Source of the DNA: a virus
Reading direction: 5' to 3' (one strand)
IMG/VR virus record: IMGVR_UViG_3300024520_005201
Span: 1-64,000 of that record
Length of the DNA: 64,000 nt
The position numbers were made by a program, and so were the translations under genes. Shown here in pieces: positions 30,862 to 52,057 of this stretch. Below the pieces are notes generated by a model. It was given only the letters and a program-made list of their open reading frames with translations. It did not search any database and was not told where the DNA came from. Numbering within the stretch: position 1 is the stretch's first letter; each line of letters opens with the position of its first letter.

Positions 30862-31479
30862 TTAATTACCTGTGAAGTTTCCAATTTGTTTCTCGCCAGC
30901 ACTCCTGGCATCGCTAAACTTCTTGTAGCCACCTACATTGCTACAGGTCGTAGTTCCTGCATAATCTCTTGAAGAAAATGTATTAGTATTTCCATACTTA
31001 ACACCAAGAGCCTTAGCAACTTTGAATACATCATCTCCACAACCCATGAATACAAATGTCCAGTTACCCTGTGCTTCTAATGTTTTAATCATTACAGAAA
31101 TATCTCTCATGCTATGTAGTTTAGAAGAATTCTCCCTGCCATCTGTAACAATATTAACCAAATAAGCTACGTCCTCACCTTCATTTGTTTTAATTTCTTG
31201 AAGAGATTTAATAGTGGCTGCTGTTGCATCTGCTAAGGATGTCCAACCAACACATTTATATTCATCTTCAGTTACTCGTTCGCCAACATCTAGTCTACGT
31301 GGCTCATCTACCTTAGTAGAAAATGTAGTTAGCGTGACTGTGGTCTTCTGCTCTGCCTCTGTTGCGTTTTTCTCTAGGACACTAAGCTCTTCATTAAGTC
31401 CACTAAGTGCTTCTTCTCTAACCTTACCCATAGACCCACTTCGGTCTAATACGATTCCTACGTGATTAACTTTCTTCAT
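30862..31479 (-). CDS. VWA-domain protein, cytoplasmic, 205 aa
   Basis: VNHVGIVLDRSGSMGKVREEAL (MIDAS D-R-S-G-S, residues 12-16), VGWTSLADAT (MIDAS Thr) and IVTDGRENSS (third Asp) make a complete von Willebrand A metal site. No signal peptide. Phage and bacterial single-VWA proteins of this type are related to TerY-like and stress proteins and bind partner proteins. Its gene sits between sugar enzymes. Function unknown. Confidence 0.8.
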   Translation of the reverse strand: MKKVNHVGIVLDRSGSMGKVREEALSGLNEELSVLEKNATEAEQKTTVTLTTFSTKVDEPRRLDVGERVTEDEYKCVGWTSLADATAATIKSLQEIKTNEGEDVAYLVNIVTDGRENSSKLHSMRDISVMIKTLEAQGNWTFVFMGCGDDVFKVAKALGVKYGNTNTFSSRDYAGTTTCSNVGGYKKFSDARSAGEKQIGNFTGN

Positions 31480-32888
31480 GCTAACTCCTTAATAAATTTT
31501 GCATTGTGATATTGTTTCGCCCACGGATTTTTAATCCTACCGCTCAAAATAAATGAGGCAAACTCTTTGATTCCGAAATCAAAATCTATTTTTGGTTTGA
31601 ACCCCAGTCTATAAGATTTTACAGCTTCTACGACATAGTTTCTAGAGTCTTCAAATGACATCTCTGTTACGTTAACATTGCTAGATTCACCAGTCATATC
31701 CAAAATTAATGCAGATATTTTTTTAGCCATATCTATAATCTTATAATTTCTGTCTGATAAAATATAAGTTCCAAAATCTTCTGCTTTATATTTTTTAATA
31801 GAGGCCTCTGCAAATATTCTAGCAGCATCCCTTACATGCAGTATGGGTCTGTATTGTTCTCCTCCAAATACATCTAATGGCTCACACTCTACTGATTTGA
31901 TAGTCATAATATTAGATACTAAATCGCACCTAATTCTAGCAAAGGCTGTAGATAATCCATATAATGTACCTAGTCTAAAAATAAAACTATTACTATTGTT
32001 CTTGATGAAATCTTCTGCAATTAATTTGGTTGACGCGTATAGACTTAATGGCCCAGTTGGACTATTTTCTGTAAGTACTTCCTCTGAAGCCCCAAATACA
32101 GAACATGTGGAAGCAAATATTAATCTTATTCCATTAGACCTACAGTAATCTGCCAAGAATTTAGTTGAATCAATATTTATAAGCTTTGTCATTTCTGGAT
32201 TAACTGCACATGCCCCATCTCCAACTATAGCTGCCAGGTGAATTATTGAATCTGGTTTTATCTCATTAAGAACTGATAGAATATTTTGTTCATCATTTAC
32301 ATCCATGTTGTAAAAATCAAAAAGCTCATGTTCTCTTAGATAATGATTGGAATATGTAAGATTATCTACTCCATAAACATAGTGTCCCATTTCCAAAAGG
32401 GTTTGTACAACAGCATCTCCTAAATACCCACACACACCTGTTATAAAAATTTTCCTACAAGACTTGCCATATGTAGGAGTTTGCTTGTGACATTCTATAC
32501 ATAATGTTCTACCATTACTTATATCGAATCGCAAATCTACAAATTTTGCAAACGGCCTAACGTGGTCAACATTTAGATTTTTGCCACTGCCACAAAAAAT
32601 ACATTTGTGCCTATCTCTATCAAGAACAGCAGTTCTCCACTGTTTATATTTACTACTTTGTCTTATCTTTTTGTGCTCATGAGGTTGAGGCTCAGGGTTT
32701 TTATTATGAGGAGTCATTCCTTTTTTAAACCATCCCTTATTGGGTTTTGTGATATTATATTTGCCACCAGATTTTGGCTTTCTATAAATATATGTACATT
32801 CTTTTGAACAGTATTTGCCGCCGCCCTGCTTAATCTTATATGGCCATGTCTGAAATGCTTTACCACACTTGCATACCACTTCAATCAT
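31476..32888 (-). CDS. HNH endonuclease fused to NAD-dependent sugar epimerase, 470 aa
   Basis: Residues 1-144 are a phage HNH nuclease: CKCGK at 6-10 and CSKEC at 27-31 as a zinc finger, KGMTPHNK, then CIFCG at 96-100, VDH at 107-109, N125 and CIECH at 130-134. Residues 145-470 are a sugar-nucleotide SDR: IFITGVCGYLG (NAD turn), STCSVFG, YASTK (Y-x3-K), YRPILHVRDAARIFAE. The joint codon at 32454-32456 is AGG, followed by AAA ATT, exactly where the epimerase alone would begin MKIFITG. This looks like a homing endonuclease inserted at the epimerase start. Confidence 0.85.
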   Translation of the reverse strand: MIEVVCKCGKAFQTWPYKIKQGGGKYCSKECTYIYRKPKSGGKYNITKPNKGWFKKGMTPHNKNPEPQPHEHKKIRQSSKYKQWRTAVLDRDRHKCIFCGSGKNLNVDHVRPFAKFVDLRFDISNGRTLCIECHKQTPTYGKSCRKIFITGVCGYLGDAVVQTLLEMGHYVYGVDNLTYSNHYLREHELFDFYNMDVNDEQNILSVLNEIKPDSIIHLAAIVGDGACAVNPEMTKLINIDSTKFLADYCRSNGIRLIFASTCSVFGASEEVLTENSPTGPLSLYASTKLIAEDFIKNNSNSFIFRLGTLYGLSTAFARIRCDLVSNIMTIKSVECEPLDVFGGEQYRPILHVRDAARIFAEASIKKYKAEDFGTYILSDRNYKIIDMAKKISALILDMTGESSNVNVTEMSFEDSRNYVVEAVKSYRLGFKPKIDFDFGIKEFASFILSGRIKNPWAKQYHNAKFIKELA

Positions 32889-45037: not shown

Positions 45038-45439
45038 TTAGAACGGCAGGTCGTCTATTGCTTCAGAGCTGGTAGCCGGAGCAAGCGTGCGCTCATCCAC
45101 GGGCTTATCTTTACGATTCTTTCCAACCTGAAGTTCTAGGACATAGACTTTAATCTTACTTCGTTTCTCGCCAGTCTCTTTGGCTGTCCACTCATCAGTT
45201 TCTAGTCTGCCTCTAATATAGACTTCTGTCCCCTTACCAATACTTCTTTCAATATAATCAGCCTTTTGATTCCAGGCTTCGCAGTCTACAAAAGTCGGCT
45301 TATCAATCCACTCATCGCCTTTTTTATACGAACGGTTGACAGCTAATCTAATAGTGGCGACTCTACTGTCTCCGCCAATCTTTTTAATCTCGGGCTCTTT
45401 CGTGGTGTGACCAACTAAAATGACTTGATTTACATTCAT
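45038..45439 (-). CDS. ssb: Single-stranded DNA-binding protein
   Basis: 133 aa, standard SSB OB fold: NVNQVILVGHTTKEPEIK, VATIRLAVNRSYKKGDEWIDKPTFVDCEAW, YIERSIGKGTEVYIRGRLETDEW. The tail ends DDLPF, the acidic tip that binds partner replication proteins. Binds ssDNA at the replication fork with DnaB and DnaE. The gene follows a 157-aa ORF under a perfect -35/-10 promoter. Confidence 0.95.
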   Translation of the reverse strand: MNVNQVILVGHTTKEPEIKKIGGDSRVATIRLAVNRSYKKGDEWIDKPTFVDCEAWNQKADYIERSIGKGTEVYIRGRLETDEWTAKETGEKRSKIKVYVLELQVGKNRKDKPVDERTLAPATSSEAIDDLPF

Positions 45440-45450
45440 CGTAACTTCCT

Positions 45451-45924
45451 TTACAAATTCACTAAGGACAAAAATGGAGACAATACTCCATAAGAAATGG
45501 CTTCGCCGATAATCTCTTCATTCAAATTATCGCCTTCAAAAACAAATCTTTCATATAGTTCTTTTATCTTATCTTTCTTAAGAACTGTATCAAAATTTAT
45601 TATTCCTAGCTCCGGGGGGCTGAAGATAACTCCATCAGTCCTTTCTCCATCGGGGCCAACATATATTATTTCATCTAGGCTTACACCCTCCATTCTAATG
45701 AAGGACATAATCTCCTCAATTATGAGCGCTTCCGCTGCTAGCGCATCTATGGGTAGTGGAATGTCACTACCAGGACACACTAATCCATTATCCCATTTCC
45801 ATAGGAGTTTCGAGCCATGATAAGATACGACAACTCTACTATGAATTATATCTGATACCACCACACATTCAGCTTTTGGTGGGGATGATTTTAGATAATT
45901 TACTATTCTATTTCTGCTTGACAT
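45451..45924 (-). CDS. Hypothetical protein, 157 aa
   Basis: First gene after the promoter at 45942-45969. N-terminal (SSRNRIVNYLKSSPPKAECVVVSDIIHSRVVVSYHGS) looks like a small beta domain; then DALAAEALIIEEIMSFIRMEGV helix and an acidic end with hydrophobic strands (EIIYVGPDGERTDGVIF). Cotranscribed with ssb, so a replication-associated role is possible. No family recognised. Confidence 0.6.
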   Translation of the reverse strand: MSSRNRIVNYLKSSPPKAECVVVSDIIHSRVVVSYHGSKLLWKWDNGLVCPGSDIPLPIDALAAEALIIEEIMSFIRMEGVSLDEIIYVGPDGERTDGVIFSPPELGIINFDTVLKKDKIKELYERFVFEGDNLNEEIIGEAISYGVLSPFLSLVNL

Positions 45925-45977: not shown

Positions 45978-47543
45978 TTATAAATGTTCAATCGCATTTA
46001 CTAATAAGCCGGTCCCTTTACTATTATCACTTTTCCTTCCTTTAATTAATACGGCCTTACCTTCTTTTATTATCCATCCTAACTTATTATATTGACTAGC
46101 AAATACAGTAACTCCATCCATCATATATGTATTATCGCTGACTTTCATAAAACACATAAGATTACCGTTCTTATCTTTAATCTCTCTAATGCCCTCTATG
46201 ATTACTCCTACCTTAACTCTATCTCCATGTCTGAGATTAAGGAAGTCCTTGCAGGTTGTATCCACCTTGTAGTTATTATATAGCTCTACTTCACTACCAC
46301 TTAAAGGCATTCCTAGGTGAAACTTTTCCCAAGCCAGAGCCATGCGCTTTCTATTTCCACCCAGGTCTCTCTTTATATCATTCCACTTCTCTATAATCCT
46401 AGGGCCTCTACTCTTATTAGGAATATTATTATCGAAGAGAGATATTATCATATCATCTACTGAACATGTATCAATAAAATCTTCACTAAAAAGAAAATCT
46501 CTTTCTCTATCAGTCAGAGATAATAGGAATTCATAACGAGCTAATAACCTAACACGGTCTATAGGTATTGCCAGAGCATTGCATTTAATTAAAGCTTGAA
46601 CTACATTCTTCTTTACCTTGCACTTATCTAAAAATAATTTCTTAAATAAACCATAGCTGGTATCAATACCTTTTAGTTGTTTAATATTCTCCAGGGATTT
46701 TTTACCTATACCTTTAATATGAGATATACCAAATACTAAATCATCATTATCTGTAAATTCAAACTGACTATTGCCAAACTCTACACTAGGAGGTAACACG
46801 TTGATATTAAATAACTTAGCTTCATATACCAACTGTTTAATTTCGTCAAACTCATCTGGGTTACTATCCGAAAACGCCAGTTTGTTCTTGAAGAACTCTA
46901 TTGGGAAATGAACCTTTGAATAAGCTCCCCAGTATCCCAGGATAGCATAACTGACTGCATGACTCTTATTGAATCCATAGCCTGCAAACTTTTCAATCCA
47001 AGAGAATACTATTTCTGCCTTATCTTGTGAGTGATTATTTTCAACTGCACCTTTAATAAACTTATCCTTAATCTTTTCAAATAGGTCAGTATTCTTTTTA
47101 CCCATAGCTTTTCTGGCCGTATCAGAATCTTGTAACGAGAAGCCCGCGAAGTCGGTGCAGATTCTCATAATCTGCTCCTGGTAAACAGGAACACCCATAG
47201 TATCCCTAAAGATAGGTTCTAGGACAGGGTCAATATATTCTGGTCTAAGCTCGCCATTCTTTGTCTTCACGTAGGTATCTGTAATATTTAGCATCTTCCC
47301 AGTAGCTGGGTCTTCTCTATACTCTGCTTCTAGGCATCCCGGACGAATTACACTAATGACTGCAGCTAATTCCTCTATGTTTCTAGGCGCAATCATTTTA
47401 CAAAATCTTCTACCTAGCTGCTTCTCAATTTGAAACAAACCCTTGGTTAAACCATTACTAATTAAATCCCAAGATGCTTGACAATGTAAATCAATATTAT
47501 CAAAATCTAAAGTTTCAAACTCACAACCACAATCAAACTTCAT
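45978..47543 (-). CDS. dnaE: DNA polymerase III alpha, C-terminal part (fingers, HhH, OB)
   Basis: About 521 aa. Start chosen at the internal ATG 47543 (MKFDCGCEF), overlapping the thymidine kinase stop; a longer start at 47576 is less likely. GLFQIEKQLGRRFCKMIAPRNIEEL and VISVIRPGCLE begin the fingers; KFAGYGFNKSHAVSYAILGYWGAY is the conserved DnaE element intact here, followed by ISHIKGIGKKSLENI (helix-hairpin-helix) and a C-terminal OB fold (RVKVGVIIEGIREI). The palm with its catalytic aspartates is in the gene at 49246. The junction lies between the third palm Asp and the fingers. Confidence 0.92.
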   Translation of the reverse strand: MKFDCGCEFETLDFDNIDLHCQASWDLISNGLTKGLFQIEKQLGRRFCKMIAPRNIEELAAVISVIRPGCLEAEYREDPATGKMLNITDTYVKTKNGELRPEYIDPVLEPIFRDTMGVPVYQEQIMRICTDFAGFSLQDSDTARKAMGKKNTDLFEKIKDKFIKGAVENNHSQDKAEIVFSWIEKFAGYGFNKSHAVSYAILGYWGAYSKVHFPIEFFKNKLAFSDSNPDEFDEIKQLVYEAKLFNINVLPPSVEFGNSQFEFTDNDDLVFGISHIKGIGKKSLENIKQLKGIDTSYGLFKKLFLDKCKVKKNVVQALIKCNALAIPIDRVRLLARYEFLLSLTDRERDFLFSEDFIDTCSVDDMIISLFDNNIPNKSRGPRIIEKWNDIKRDLGGNRKRMALAWEKFHLGMPLSGSEVELYNNYKVDTTCKDFLNLRHGDRVKVGVIIEGIREIKDKNGNLMCFMKVSDNTYMMDGVTVFASQYNKLGWIIKEGKAVLIKGRKSDNSKGTGLLVNAIEHL

Positions 47544-48087
47544 TCCAACACTCGAAACATCTAGGCTCGAAAGCATCTATTCCTCCTACTACTACTTGAC
47601 CTTTATCTTTTGTTTTTCTATATGTTCTAGTGGCACTATTAATTTTCTTACACCTAGAGCATACCGCCTTGAGACAAACTATGTTATCTGCCAGCGCTAA
47701 TAATTCTGGCATTGCACCAAAAGGTTTACCATATGAATCTTGTGATAAACCAGCTACAATAATATGGGACCACTCAGACCATTCGTCTATGCATCTAAGA
47801 ATTTGTACTTTATTAAAGAACTGTGCTTCATCAATAAGGATTACATTTATATCTCTATCATATTTTTTAAAACATTTGTATGCTTCATTAAAAAAGCTAT
47901 TTGAATCGACAGCATAGGCTGAAAATTTATCTCCGTAATGAGTAGTAATATCACTCTTGCTATATCTATCATCTATTTTTGGCTTAAATGCAATTACAAT
48001 ATCTCCTGCAACTATATGAGACATAGCTTTACTTATTAGGGCTGAGCTTTTGCCAGAGAACATTGGCCCCGTAATTACTGTTAGCAT
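47533..48087 (-). CDS. tdk: Thymidine kinase
   Basis: 184 aa, type II TK. P-loop GPMFSGKS at 7-14, then IDDRYSKSDITTHYG, LIDEAQFF (Walker B-like DEAQ), and a C-terminal zinc lasso with C-x2-C (CSRC) and CFEC. Phosphorylates thymidine to dTMP. It lies between the two halves of the polymerase alpha gene. Overlaps the FmdB-like gene (TAATG). Confidence 0.95.
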   Translation of the reverse strand: MLTVITGPMFSGKSSALISKAMSHIVAGDIVIAFKPKIDDRYSKSDITTHYGDKFSAYAVDSNSFFNEAYKCFKKYDRDINVILIDEAQFFNKVQILRCIDEWSEWSHIIVAGLSQDSYGKPFGAMPELLALADNIVCLKAVCSRCKKINSATRTYRKTKDKGQVVVGGIDAFEPRCFECWNEV

Positions 48088-48305
48088 TATTCTCCTAACA
48101 AATCTTTTCCAGTTTCTTTTTTATACCACTTGCCTAAAGTTTCTCTCTCTATATGAATGGCATTACTTCCAATGATTCTTCTTTCCCCTTTACCATCACA
48201 TCTCATAAAGCTGCAATTGATTTTTTCTTTAGGGTCTGAACTAATAGGTAGGTCAGCATTCCATGTGCCGCCACATAGGTCACAATGATATTTATATCTA
48301 GGCAT
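48087..48305 (-). CDS. FmdB-like zinc-ribbon protein, 72 aa
   Basis: MPRYKYHCDLCGGTWNADLP has the CxxC start of the FmdB/CxxC putative regulatory family, with a second pair around CSFMRCDGKG. The rest is basic. Such proteins are small zinc-binding regulators of unknown target. Fits between tdk and a 163-aa gene with an 8-nt overlap. Confidence 0.75.
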   Translation of the reverse strand: MPRYKYHCDLCGGTWNADLPISSDPKEKINCSFMRCDGKGERRIIGSNAIHIERETLGKWYKKETGKDLLGE

Positions 48306-48789
48306 CTATGTGCTCCACTCTGTAAGCTACGTTATCTTCTTCAATCATTTCTCTCTTAACGAGCAGCATAAATGTAGCCCATCTATCTCCGCCCTTAACA
48401 CTTCTAAATCTTGAAGCGTTTGCTACATTAAATAGATAATTTCTAAGGTCCTCTGTCTTAAACATATATAGAGTGAACCCCTTATCATCTGGCACGACGT
48501 AATGAACTTCGTGTGCCTCTGTTGAGGATATACCCGTCAGCTTGCCCTTTTTGTTATGTGTCTCGAAGCATAGGTTGCCCGTCCTCTTCGCCATCATATC
48601 ATACTTAACTTCTACACTATATGATATACCACAGTCTGATGTAATCTCTACATCTCCTTCTATTTGCCTTGCCTTTTCAAGGTCAGCAATCACAACATTA
48701 TCTGCTGCTTCATGCAGGCTATCAAGAAAGGTCTTAACTATACTAACCGCCACTTTTGACTCCTCTAAATCTTTTAAGAAATGTCCCAT
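48298..48789 (-). CDS. Possible PD-(D/E)xK-like protein, 163 aa
   Basis: VEITSDCGISYSVEVKYDMMAKRTGNLCFETHNKKG contains an E-V-K with acidic residues at PD-(D/E)xK-like spacing, and AHEVHYVVPDDKGFTLYMFKTEDLRNYLF completes the alpha/beta pattern common in phage nuclease-like proteins of unknown role. No substrate known. The next gene start overlaps its stop (TAATG), in the replication cluster. Confidence 0.6.
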   Translation of the reverse strand: MGHFLKDLEESKVAVSIVKTFLDSLHEAADNVVIADLEKARQIEGDVEITSDCGISYSVEVKYDMMAKRTGNLCFETHNKKGKLTGISSTEAHEVHYVVPDDKGFTLYMFKTEDLRNYLFNVANASRFRSVKGGDRWATFMLLVKREMIEEDNVAYRVEHIDA

Positions 48790-49259
48790 TATGAAACACC
48801 CGTACTTCCAAATCCGCCCTCTCCTCTTTCAGAGACTGAGACACTATCGGTCCATGTAAAGTCTCCTTGAGGAGCACGCTTCAAAACAAATTGTGCAACC
48901 CTATCCCCTACTCTTACTGCAAAAGGATGCTCAGAATTATTCTGTAGAATCACACCACATTTTCCTCTATATCCAGAATCTATTGTGCCTGGAGAATTCA
49001 ACACAGTAATACCATCTCTGAGTGCTAGACCAGACCTGGGCCTCACTTGAACTTCCCAACCACTTTGAATTTGTATCTTAAAACCAAGGTCAATAAGTCC
49101 ACGACAACTTGGCTGAATTACAGTTTCAGTGACGCTGCTAACATCTGCTCCTGCATCACCATCCTTTTTATAACTTGGTAATATAGCTTCATCGTGTGTT
49201 CTTTCTAATTTAACACTAGGCCTACACTGAACAGACCATTCACTATTATTTTTTTTCAT
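48789..49259 (-). CDS. dut: dUTP pyrophosphatase (dUTPase)
   Basis: 156 aa trimeric dUTPase with all five motifs: DAGADVSS, QVRPRSGLALRDG, NSPGTIDSGYRGKCGV, GDRVAQFVL and the C-terminal GEGGFGSTG. Hydrolyses dUTP to dUMP, giving the substrate for thymidylate synthesis by ThyX at 52376. Starts inside the end of the polymerase N-part gene. Confidence 0.96.
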   Translation of the reverse strand: MKKNNSEWSVQCRPSVKLERTHDEAILPSYKKDGDAGADVSSVTETVIQPSCRGLIDLGFKIQIQSGWEVQVRPRSGLALRDGITVLNSPGTIDSGYRGKCGVILQNNSEHPFAVRVGDRVAQFVLKRAPQGDFTWTDSVSVSERGEGGFGSTGVS

Positions 49260-51141
49260 CTTTATTATCCTTCTGTTGGCTATGTCTTTTATTCACATCC
49301 TGTTGAATGTTATAGAGGACATCCATTGTATTAAGTCCTAGGATATCTACCTTTAAAAACCCCATAGAATCTAGTGTAACTCCGTCCCACTCTGTAATTT
49401 TTTTCTTTTCTTTTGTATTCCATCTCAAAGGAATAGAACCAGTTTCAAAAGACTCATTACTGATAACAATACCTGCTGGATGTTGTCCTGAACTTTTCGG
49501 ACAGCCCTCAAGCTTCTCTGCTATTCTAAATAGTCTAGGATTCTTATCTTTGTATTCCTTAAGTTTTTCATTCTTATCTATTGCGTCTGCTAAGTTCTTT
49601 ACTTTTGCTGGAACGTTACGTGTCATTACATTAGCATCTTGAAAGCTCATGCCCTCTTTGCCAAGAATAGTTGCGGTATCTTTAAGAGCAGCCTTGGTGG
49701 CTAGGGTATTAAATGTCACCATCTGTGCAACCCTATCTTTTCCAAACCTCTCCTCTATATACTTAACTACTTCTCCACGCCTACTTCTACTGACGTCAAT
49801 ATCAATATCCGCCATAGAACCTTTTCTACCTATGTTGTAGAATCTCTCCCAGATAAGACCATATTTAATTGGGTCTATACCTGTGATTCTGAGAATATAA
49901 CTAACAATAGAACCCGCAGCAGAACCACGGCCTGGACCAATAGGTATGTGCTGAGAACGGGTCCAACTAACAATGTCCCAGATAATAAGAAAGTAATCAG
50001 CAAGATTAGCATCTTTAATATCTCGAAGCTCTTTTTTAACTCTGGCCTTATGCTCCTGAGAAGCTTCTTCAATCGGACAGCCATACCTTTCTTGATATCC
50101 TGACATGACAAGCTCGACCAAATAATTAAATGATGTAAGGTCAACTACCTCTCCTTCGGCATCTTCGTGCCCACAATTCTTCACAGTAGCACAGCCCGCA
50201 GATTCAGGAACAAATTCATATTTAGGTAGACGAAGTTTGTGTTCTATATCTATATCTTCAATGCGGTCAGCAATTTGAGAACTCATTTCTAACTCTGCTT
50301 GAGTCAGGGTACTCATTCTTCTCTCGCCATCTTCTGTTGTTAGATATTCTTTAAGCATATGGTGTGCATTTTTAAGCCAATACTCTCTAGTAGAATAGTA
50401 TGGTCTAAACTGTTTACCTTTCCCATATCCTACTGGTTTATCGAAAGTATCTTTTGTTCTAATTGCCCAGATTGCCTCATGCATTTCTACGTCATCGCGG
50501 TCAATATAATGCGCATCTTGGCACGCCACAACAGGAATGTCTAGATGGTTTCCCATTTGGCGTAGCATCTTGTTAATTTCTGGCTGACAATTCAATCCGC
50601 CGTCTTGTGTTTCAAGGTAGAGCCTATCACCAAAAATATTCTTGAGTCTTGTCGCGTGTTGTGCAGCGACATCAAAATTACCTTCATTGATATTCCATGG
50701 TACGATACCCTTGAGACATGCTGTAAGACAAATTAAACCCTCTCCATATTTATCTAAATCGTTGAAGTCAACGCGTGGGCCATAATAAAACTTTTCGCTA
50801 GCTCGCGTTGTTAAAATCTTAATATTATCCCAGCCTGTTTTATTCATTGCCAGAAGAATTAAATGATGATTACGAGAAGCTCTTCTCTTATCTTCTTTAG
50901 CTTTTATCTTATCTTGTTCATGGTTATCTACCATATAGAATTCACAGGAAAGAATAGGTTTAATCTTACGCTTCCTACATTCCTTGTGAAACTCTGGTAC
51001 ACCCGCGATAGTCCCGTGGTCAGTAAGAGCTAAGGATTTATGACCATACTCATCTGCTCTCTTGACAATATCTGGTACCTTAGATATCGCATCTAATATA
51101 CTATAATTACTATGTAGGTGTAGGTGTGTCATCTCTGTCAT
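49246..51141 (-). CDS. dnaE: DNA polymerase III alpha, N-terminal part (PHP and palm)
   Basis: 631 aa. PHP domain: THLHLHSNYSILDA, LALTDHGT, further metal-binding histidines (SRNHHLILL, DAHYID). The palm: GPGRGSAAGSIVSYILR, then SMADIDIDVSRSRRGEVV with the first two catalytic aspartates, and FLKVDILGLNTMDVL with the third. It ends in a charged tail (KDNKDEKK) right after the palm. It would have to join the 521-aa partner (45978-47543) to form a normal ~1150-aa alpha subunit. AGGAG precedes ATG 51141. Confidence 0.94.
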   Translation of the reverse strand: MTEMTHLHLHSNYSILDAISKVPDIVKRADEYGHKSLALTDHGTIAGVPEFHKECRKRKIKPILSCEFYMVDNHEQDKIKAKEDKRRASRNHHLILLAMNKTGWDNIKILTTRASEKFYYGPRVDFNDLDKYGEGLICLTACLKGIVPWNINEGNFDVAAQHATRLKNIFGDRLYLETQDGGLNCQPEINKMLRQMGNHLDIPVVACQDAHYIDRDDVEMHEAIWAIRTKDTFDKPVGYGKGKQFRPYYSTREYWLKNAHHMLKEYLTTEDGERRMSTLTQAELEMSSQIADRIEDIDIEHKLRLPKYEFVPESAGCATVKNCGHEDAEGEVVDLTSFNYLVELVMSGYQERYGCPIEEASQEHKARVKKELRDIKDANLADYFLIIWDIVSWTRSQHIPIGPGRGSAAGSIVSYILRITGIDPIKYGLIWERFYNIGRKGSMADIDIDVSRSRRGEVVKYIEERFGKDRVAQMVTFNTLATKAALKDTATILGKEGMSFQDANVMTRNVPAKVKNLADAIDKNEKLKEYKDKNPRLFRIAEKLEGCPKSSGQHPAGIVISNESFETGSIPLRWNTKEKKKITEWDGVTLDSMGFLKVDILGLNTMDVLYNIQQDVNKRHSQQKDNKDEKK

Positions 51142-51142
51142 T

Positions 51143-52057
51143 TTATGCTCCTGCCATCGGCAACTTCTTTTTATGCTCTACCTCTGGTGGCAAAACGAAC
51201 TGACCATTTTCATCTGTATACTGTTGCTTGATTTTACTACACTCGTCATAACCTATGCACCAATTGCACTTGAATGACTTCTTTCTAATTGGGCTACATG
51301 CTGTAGCAATCTTTCCGTAAGAATCTTTAAGAAATGCCCTAGTCTTTTCATCATCCTCTCTGTTAAAGATAATGCTGACTGGTCCCTTTCTTAGATAATC
51401 CAAAGTCATAACCACATAGTTATATTGAGGAAATAACTCTTTAGCTACCATGCTATAGATTCGCATTTGTAAATCCTTAAATGCGGCATCTGTATTCTTT
51501 GTGTAGTTTCCAGTCTTATAGTCTCTGACTTCTAGGGTTTCTTCATCTATCTCTGTTACCAAATCCATAAAGCCACGGACCTTAAAACCCTCATACTCTT
51601 TTTCAAAAGCAACCTCGGCTCCAATTATCTTGCGATTAAGAACTGAGTCTGGCCTTATGATAGTATGCTCAAGAATCCTGAGGTCGTCCTCAAAGTTTGG
51701 CTTAGGGCAGCCCTCGAAATCTTCTACGATTCTGTTCGCTACGGAGCAGATACCTCCACTAGAAAGCCACTTGCATTCAGTGCAGTTCTTTTCTACTGGG
51801 TGAGGGAATCCTCTATTGGGTTTTCTATCATCAAATTCCCATACCTTATGCTTTTCATAATAAGCCTTCAGGTGTTTAACATAGTCTTTATCTTCTTTTA
51901 CATAAAGTTCAAGAGCTTCGTGGACCGCACTCCCTTTGTGGGTGGCTATTGAATCTCCCTTTAACTCTGGTAGAACCAGATGATATTGTAAAAAGTATCT
52001 GAACGGACAATCTATATATGTGTTTAATCTGGATGCCGATAAGTATTCAATTTTCAT
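51143..52057 (-). CDS. Cas4/RecB-family PD-(D/E)xK nuclease, 304 aa
   Basis: YLSASRLNTYIDCPFRYFLQYHL at the start, KGSAVHEALELYV, then GFKVRGFMDLVTEIDEETLEVRDYKTGNYT, the D...E/D-Y-K catalytic core of RecB/Cas4 nucleases. Cysteines at the start (DCPF) and end (CNWCIGYDEC) would hold a 4Fe-4S cluster as in Cas4/AddB. Phage versions function in DNA recombination or replication, usually near helicases. Ends 2 nt before dnaE-N. Confidence 0.85.
   Translation of the reverse strand: MKIEYLSASRLNTYIDCPFRYFLQYHLVLPELKGDSIATHKGSAVHEALELYVKEDKDYVKHLKAYYEKHKVWEFDDRKPNRGFPHPVEKNCTECKWLSSGGICSVANRIVEDFEGCPKPNFEDDLRILEHTIIRPDSVLNRKIIGAEVAFEKEYEGFKVRGFMDLVTEIDEETLEVRDYKTGNYTKNTDAAFKDLQMRIYSMVAKELFPQYNYVVMTLDYLRKGPVSIIFNREDDEKTRAFLKDSYGKIATACSPIRKKSFKCNWCIGYDECSKIKQQYTDENGQFVLPPEVEHKKKLPMAGA

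Follow-up and report, generated by a model that had tools for sequence, protein, structure and literature searches.

The DNA polymerase III alpha subunit (polIIIα) of the bacterial virus represented by the window, namely the 64,000 nucleotides (nt) analyzed here from IMG/VR record IMGVR_UViG_3300024520_005201, is specified in the list of open reading frames (ORFs) by two minus-strand genes that are separated by four other genes. The first gene in the direction of transcription (positions 49246..51141) encodes polIIIα-N, a protein of 631 amino acids (aa) that comprises the PHP domain, the palm with catalytic residues D445, D447 and D599, and the thumb, and that terminates in a helix spanning residues 604-630. 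The second gene (45978..47576) encodes polIIIα-C, which carries the fingers, helix-hairpin-helix and OB fold in a product of 532 aa, or of 521 aa if translation begins at ATG 47543. The start of this gene is uncertain: ATG 47576 has an AGGAGG sequence upstream, but the latter is located inside conserved codons of the thymidine kinase gene, and in the related contig L002 the corresponding gene begins with the counterpart of ATG 47543. The six genes from polIIIα-N to polIIIα-C form a single run with overlaps of 14, 1, 8, 1 and about 11 nt as judged from their coordinates.

Pfam searches matched polIIIα-N with PHP (1e-44) and DNA_pol3_alpha (6e-77), and polIIIα-C with DNA_pol3_finger (5e-38) and HHH_6 (6e-9). 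These complementary matches bear out the two-gene arrangement with four intervening same-strand genes that an earlier note on the sequence had described. The OB match of the C protein was weak by sequence (7e-4); its strands and fold agreed in the AlphaFold2 (AF2) model. Together the two proteins contain the PHP domain, palm with three Asp residues, fingers and OB domain that define the C-family DNA polymerases (DnaE/polIIIα). Each half modeled well alone: polIIIα-N yielded a predicted local distance difference test (pLDDT) value of 88.9 and a Foldseek TMq of 0.80 to E. coli alpha (2hnh), and polIIIα-C a pLDDT of 91 and a TMq of 0.70 to M. tuberculosis alpha (7pu7). Alignment to solved structures placed N residue 622 at approximately position 578 of the E. 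coli subunit, and the counterpart of C residue 23 in the 532-aa form is position 584. As these two E. coli positions flank the junction, the break maps to the palm-fingers linker, and no alpha residues have been lost. The summed length (631 + 521 = 1152 aa) matches the ~1150 aa anticipated in the earlier note and approximates that of the nearest unsplit relatives, L213 and L214, whose open frames span 1150 and 1127 codons (1138 aa for L213 counted from its start codon). The catalytic Asp triad of the palm is preserved in 84/84 split enzymes that were examined. The ratio of nonsynonymous to synonymous substitution (dN/dS) between the window and L002 was 0.068 for the N gene, 0.049 for the C gene and 0.053 for the gene for single-stranded DNA-binding protein (SSB), values that are rough as dS is saturated.

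The two-gene arrangement recurs in independent contigs and therefore is not an assembly error, and a frameshift as the cause of the two ORFs is excluded by the four genes between the halves. Only one palm match was present in the whole 69.7-kb record from which the window derives. Likewise, the palm and finger domains occurred as a single set in each of 23 related records, with the palm match bisected at the site of any intein or further break. Thus, no second copy of alpha was detected in the 69.7-kb record or in the 23 related records, which are metagenomic and possibly incomplete.

The four genes in the gap, all on the minus strand, encode a dUTPase (48789..49259; 156 aa; Pfam dUTPase 3e-25), a PD-(D/E)xK-like protein (48298..48789; 163 aa; phrog_13596 5e-4), an FmdB-like zinc ribbon (48087..48305; 72 aa; Pfam Zn_ribbon_8 8e-6, under the curated cut-off) and a thymidine kinase (47533..48087; 184 aa; Pfam TK 1e-40). 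The identities proposed previously for the dUTPase and thymidine kinase were upheld by Pfam; those of the other two products are less firm, as the FmdB-like match is below the cut-off, and the 163-aa protein had no Pfam match and only a weak PHROG match to a family of unknown function. No homing endonuclease was found among the four genes.

The same break was detected in >100 uncultured viral sequences. A scan with the C-protein alignment retrieved 80 loci, in nearly all of which the N and C genes are separate at the same site, and a separate scan with the N protein produced 38 split, 35 unsplit and seven truncated enzymes among the best 80, with partial overlap of contigs between the two scans. 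The window-type architecture is found in seven contigs (window, L002, L003, L039, L041, L126 and L128) that mostly have their cargo in common, L003 being devoid of thymidine kinase in the break and possessing two dUTPase-like genes. In a further 72 IMG/VR loci, designated the exonuclease type, a DnaQ-like gene of ~227 aa is located between the halves, often with additional cargo. The product of this gene matched Pfam RNase_T (9e-13) and phrog_192 ('DNA polymerase exonuclease subunit'), and the DEDDh residues are intact in 68/68 cases. This exonuclease-in-the-break lineage (L070-L149) and the window have in common both the site of the break and the neighboring genes for primase, Cas4-like nuclease, SSB and glycosyltransferase. 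No cultured relative with >36% identity was evident in the phage collection. The two-gene split is a widespread, old trait instead of a local oddity.

The comparison with unsplit homologs that the earlier note proposed was provided by L213 and L214, whose intact enzymes show 39% identity over the N region. The gene order in these contigs is primase, Cas4-like nuclease, intact polIIIα, SSB and glycosyltransferase, with an FmdB-like gene directly upstream of polIIIα in L213. The same order, with the insert in addition, occurs in the window lineage, in L042 and in the exonuclease-type contigs L091 and L116, although SSB was undetected in L116. As the same flanking genes surround an intact gene in L213 and L214, these loci represent the 'empty site' and support a gain of genes at the break. 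In a phylogenetic tree L213 and L214 nest with the window lineage (support 98) and the exonuclease type is the sister group. An earlier tree that lacked L213 and L214 had placed all split members of the clade in one group, and a constraint uniting all split members was not rejected (p-AU 0.129). Both a single break followed by re-fusion and several separate breaks are compatible with these trees. The linker of L213, KRHGKKFDLLTLPL, is ordinary, which counts against re-fusion.

The contents of the gap vary widely. LAGLIDADG genes are present in L126 and L122, Endonuclease VII-like genes in L120, L130, L131, L145 and L148, nucleotide-sugar genes in L074 and L083, methyltransferase genes in L092 and L132, and a formyl transferase gene in L141. 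The 163-aa PD-(D/E)xK-like gene of the window also is located within the break of L042 and of the exonuclease-type loci L091, L116 and L255. This variety indicates that gene gain at the break holds generally and extends beyond thymidylate genes. Thus, the earlier suggestion that genes were acquired at the break was borne out by the flanks of L213 and L214, but the accompanying emphasis on thymidylate genes was not, as most relatives harbor a proofreading exonuclease or other genes. In L212 (2284-9079; the contig of L088) ~6 kb of metabolic genes separates the halves; these include an aldehyde dehydrogenase gene identified by Pfam and, by eye, aminotransferase-like, amidinotransferase-like and dehydrogenase-like genes. 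In L122 (2027-7596) polIIIα is in three pieces in the order N1, LAGLIDADG homing endonuclease, N2, small ORF, exonuclease and C.

The C protein of the window begins with a short element, MKFDCGCEFETLDFDNIDLHC (47481..47543, minus strand), that includes Cys5, Cys7 and Cys21 (521-aa numbering) and forms a putative metal knuckle. Residues 1-20 of the C-protein model have pLDDT values of 88-89 with a strand bridge between K2 and E8. A CGC motif near the start was observed in 30/79 split C proteins of the clade and at the junction of 0/100 unsplit enzymes. A third Cys is positioned four residues ahead of a conserved Trp in 30/30 CGC carriers vs. 2/49 proteins without CGC. Although strong in raw form, this association rests on ~3 independent changes on the tree (sign test p 0.25-0.5) and falls short of statistical proof. 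Scanning of all N and C columns for a fourth metal ligand revealed no further Cys or His that tracks CGC cleanly. The heads of L003, L039, L041 and L128 are different and lack CGC despite belonging to the same lineage as the window, and the motif therefore is not essential. As it occurs in the exonuclease lineage as well as in that of the window, it may be ancestral. Of the small metal or docking element that the earlier note had proposed, the metal knuckle is plausible and gains support from the co-occurrence of CGC with a third Cys. The charged C-terminal tail of polIIIα-N, which the earlier note had linked to non-covalent assembly, was rejected as a docking element, as it is not conserved in L003, L039, L041 or L128.

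The nine PHP metal ligands of the window are retained in 11 of the 12 split enzymes that lack the exonuclease, the exception being L202, a probable frameshift artefact. In the exonuclease lineage the PHP site is degraded in about half of the members. The DEDDh exonuclease is absent from the break in the window, and a search with PF00929 (RNase_T) found none in the 69.7-kb record. The intact ligands and the absence of an RNase_T exonuclease suggest that proofreading in the window virus may be performed by the PHP domain.

We infer that the two genes very probably produce a working phage replicative polymerase in which alpha consists of two co-expressed chains that assemble non-covalently. In the sequence of events envisaged, an insertion at the palm/fingers boundary would have cut an ancestral single polIIIα gene, with each piece retaining complete domains and possessing its own start and stop. 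Both pieces would be translated from the one run of overlapping genes, and the chains would associate non-covalently such that the palm of the N chain, with its catalytic Asp residues, and the fingers of the C chain, which bind nucleotide and template, form one active site. In members with CGC, the new N-terminus of the C chain probably would bind a metal through its CGC...C knuckle, which would cap or dock this end. Since then the gap would have been a place of gene gain and loss, accommodating the proofreading exonuclease in most relatives and the dUTPase, PDDEXK, FmdB and thymidine kinase genes in the window lineage, in which proofreading probably would be left to the intact PHP domain. Non-covalent association, as the earlier note had anticipated, appears the most likely mode by analogy with published phage precedents. 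The correlation between the distance matrices of the N and C proteins (0.93; 0.88 for N vs. the exonuclease) counts in favor of this interpretation, but linkage of any two genes would be expected to yield a high value. Against it, some close relatives are devoid of the metal element, and an intact alpha beyond the possibly incomplete metagenomic records stays conceivable. A more elaborate version, in which N, C and, mostly, the DEDDh proofreader constitute a modular multi-chain replicase with a metal CGC...C clasp born with the break and a gap that acts as a safe harbor for cargo, is unlikely on present evidence.

Several other explanations were considered. Joining of the halves post-translationally by a split intein, as occurs in cyanobacterial DnaE, might be entertained given that inteins are present in polIIIα genes of the lineage, in the C genes of L003 and L126 (FNK/SH) and the N gene of L041 (GRG/SASGS). 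Nevertheless, no Pfam intein domain is evident at either end in the window, whereas the L003 intein is visible to Pfam, albeit below cut-off; the N protein terminates in an ordinary helix, and the start of the C protein is without the HN motif of intein C-termini. The intein residues at the ends that would betray splicing thus were sought and not found, and the break is distant from the cyanobacterial site as the FAGY/FNKSH element is uninterrupted within the C gene, in agreement with the earlier note. Splicing of this type is extremely improbable. Group I introns are known in phage polymerase genes, and RNA trans-splicing or a split group I/II intron could in principle join the messages. Searches of the window, L002, L003 and L025 against Rfam revealed no intron; with a start and stop for each half and overlapping neighbors as well, this is the most remote of the explanations, and group I/II introns were rejected.

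Decay of a gene commonly begins with its breakage, and the two genes might accordingly be remnants of a polymerase that was replaced. Yet both halves are under purifying selection, the catalytic residues are retained in all split enzymes noted above, each record has this sole alpha, and the genes are surrounded by replication genes of the phage itself (primase, DnaB-like helicase, UvsX and SSB), which makes decay highly improbable. It is only slightly less so that the halves act separately, the N protein as a PHP nuclease and the C protein in DNA binding or regulation, while the host polymerase replicates the phage. The complete set of PHP metal ligands and the predicted capacity of each half to fold alone would accommodate this idea, but the palm Asp residues and the finger motifs YQEQ, RKAMGKK and FNKSH would be unneeded for independent functions and are conserved and co-inherited. 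A different question is whether a homing endonuclease made the break and later was lost or replaced by cargo, an origin that is compatible with two chains that assemble. The LAGLIDADG genes inside the alpha clusters of L122 and L126 and the Endonuclease VII-like genes listed above favor such an origin, whereas the breaks of the window, of L002 and of Rossellomorea phage phiT1 are free of homing endonucleases, and the L126 enzyme is surrounded by cargo and may have arrived later. This origin is possible, but is not the favored one.

Two-gene phage polIIIα and split phage enzymes that reassemble already are known; what is new is the breadth of the trait, the contents of the gap and the CGC element. 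The polIIIα of Microbacterium cluster EF phages (Dauntless, Krampus) is produced from two genes (PMC7302621), the only description of two-gene phage polIIIα found in a literature search. In these phages and in Gordonia phage LittleFella, as in the window, polIIIα derives from two genes, but the break follows PHP and the two genes lie next to each other or overlap, whereas in the window the break is at the palm/fingers boundary and contains 1.7 kb of other genes. The phiT1 genes (gp20/gp19/gp18) are broken at the same site as the window with a single 49-aa ORF between the halves that is unrelated to the window gap genes. As phiT1 is placed outside the window and exonuclease lineages in the tree, its break at the same place is independent. 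The gp43A and gp43B proteins of Aeromonas phage 25 co-purify and are active in polymerization, and the split NrdA of Aeh1 is functional (PMC2988022). Like the alpha proposed for the window, gp43A/gp43B (Aeromonas phages 25 and 44RR) and NrdA are essential phage enzymes formed by reassembly of two chains, but they are a family B polymerase and a ribonucleotide reductase in which a homing endonuclease or untranslated spacer intervenes, in contrast to the metabolic and proofreading genes here. Cyanobacterial DnaE, which is split by the DnaE intein (PMC3919608), is likewise a C-family polymerase in two genes, but is restored by protein splicing at FAGY/FNKSH, the element that is intact in the window.

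The location of palm and fingers on separate chains tests how divisible an active site can be while still copying a genome. The >70 loci in which both halves are complete, along with the unsplit syntenic relatives, offer 'before' and 'after' enzymes from nature with which reconstitution could be attempted, and the split/unsplit pairs are material for studying how a cut essential gene survives. The cargo of proofreading exonuclease, endonucleases and metabolic genes suggests that the interior of a broken essential gene can be a protected site for gene gain. In annotation, searches that assume one full-length alpha gene will miscount the replicases of uncultured phages.

Other interruptions of polIIIα were noted. 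An HNH-containing intein is present in the C genes of L003 (14034-16430) and L126 (4615-7008) at FNK/SH, near the cyanobacterial DnaE site without coinciding with it, and a LAGLIDADG-type intein interrupts the palm motif GRG/SASGS in the N gene of L041 (5944-9225). In L065 (5977-10217) and L046 (1629-5869) an intein at FQFEN/C is divided into two overlapping ORFs, one with the splicing part and the other with the HNH part, and may represent either a naturally split intein or a frameshift. In L025, L028, L030 and L062 a different break falls within the palm, the second gene seemingly bearing an extra diverged palm segment around GSSVAYLIGIT. Tenacibaculum phage Larrie (L036) and a Staphylococcus phage SPbeta-like sequence (L037) also have two-gene polIIIα with palm-level breaks. 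The apparent fragmentation in L188 and L204, both from records with the title uncultured Mycoplasma, was set aside as a probable genetic-code artefact with TGA read as Trp, and that in L202 looks like a simple frameshift.

The surroundings of the locus comprise phage replication genes, including those for UvsX, DnaB-like helicase, primase, ThyX, Cas4-like nuclease and SSB. Directly upstream of polIIIα-N is a gene for a PD-(D/E)XK (Cas4/RecB-like) nuclease (51143..52057, minus strand; Pfam PDDEXK_1 1e-26), which is the conserved left neighbor by synteny. Directly downstream of polIIIα-C are orf157 and SSB (45038..45924, minus strand; Pfam SSB 6e-24), the latter being the conserved right neighbor. 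Elsewhere in the window, positions 31476-32888 encode a 470-aa protein in which an HNH endonuclease-like part is combined with a region that matches the nucleotide-sugar epimerase PHROG 540.

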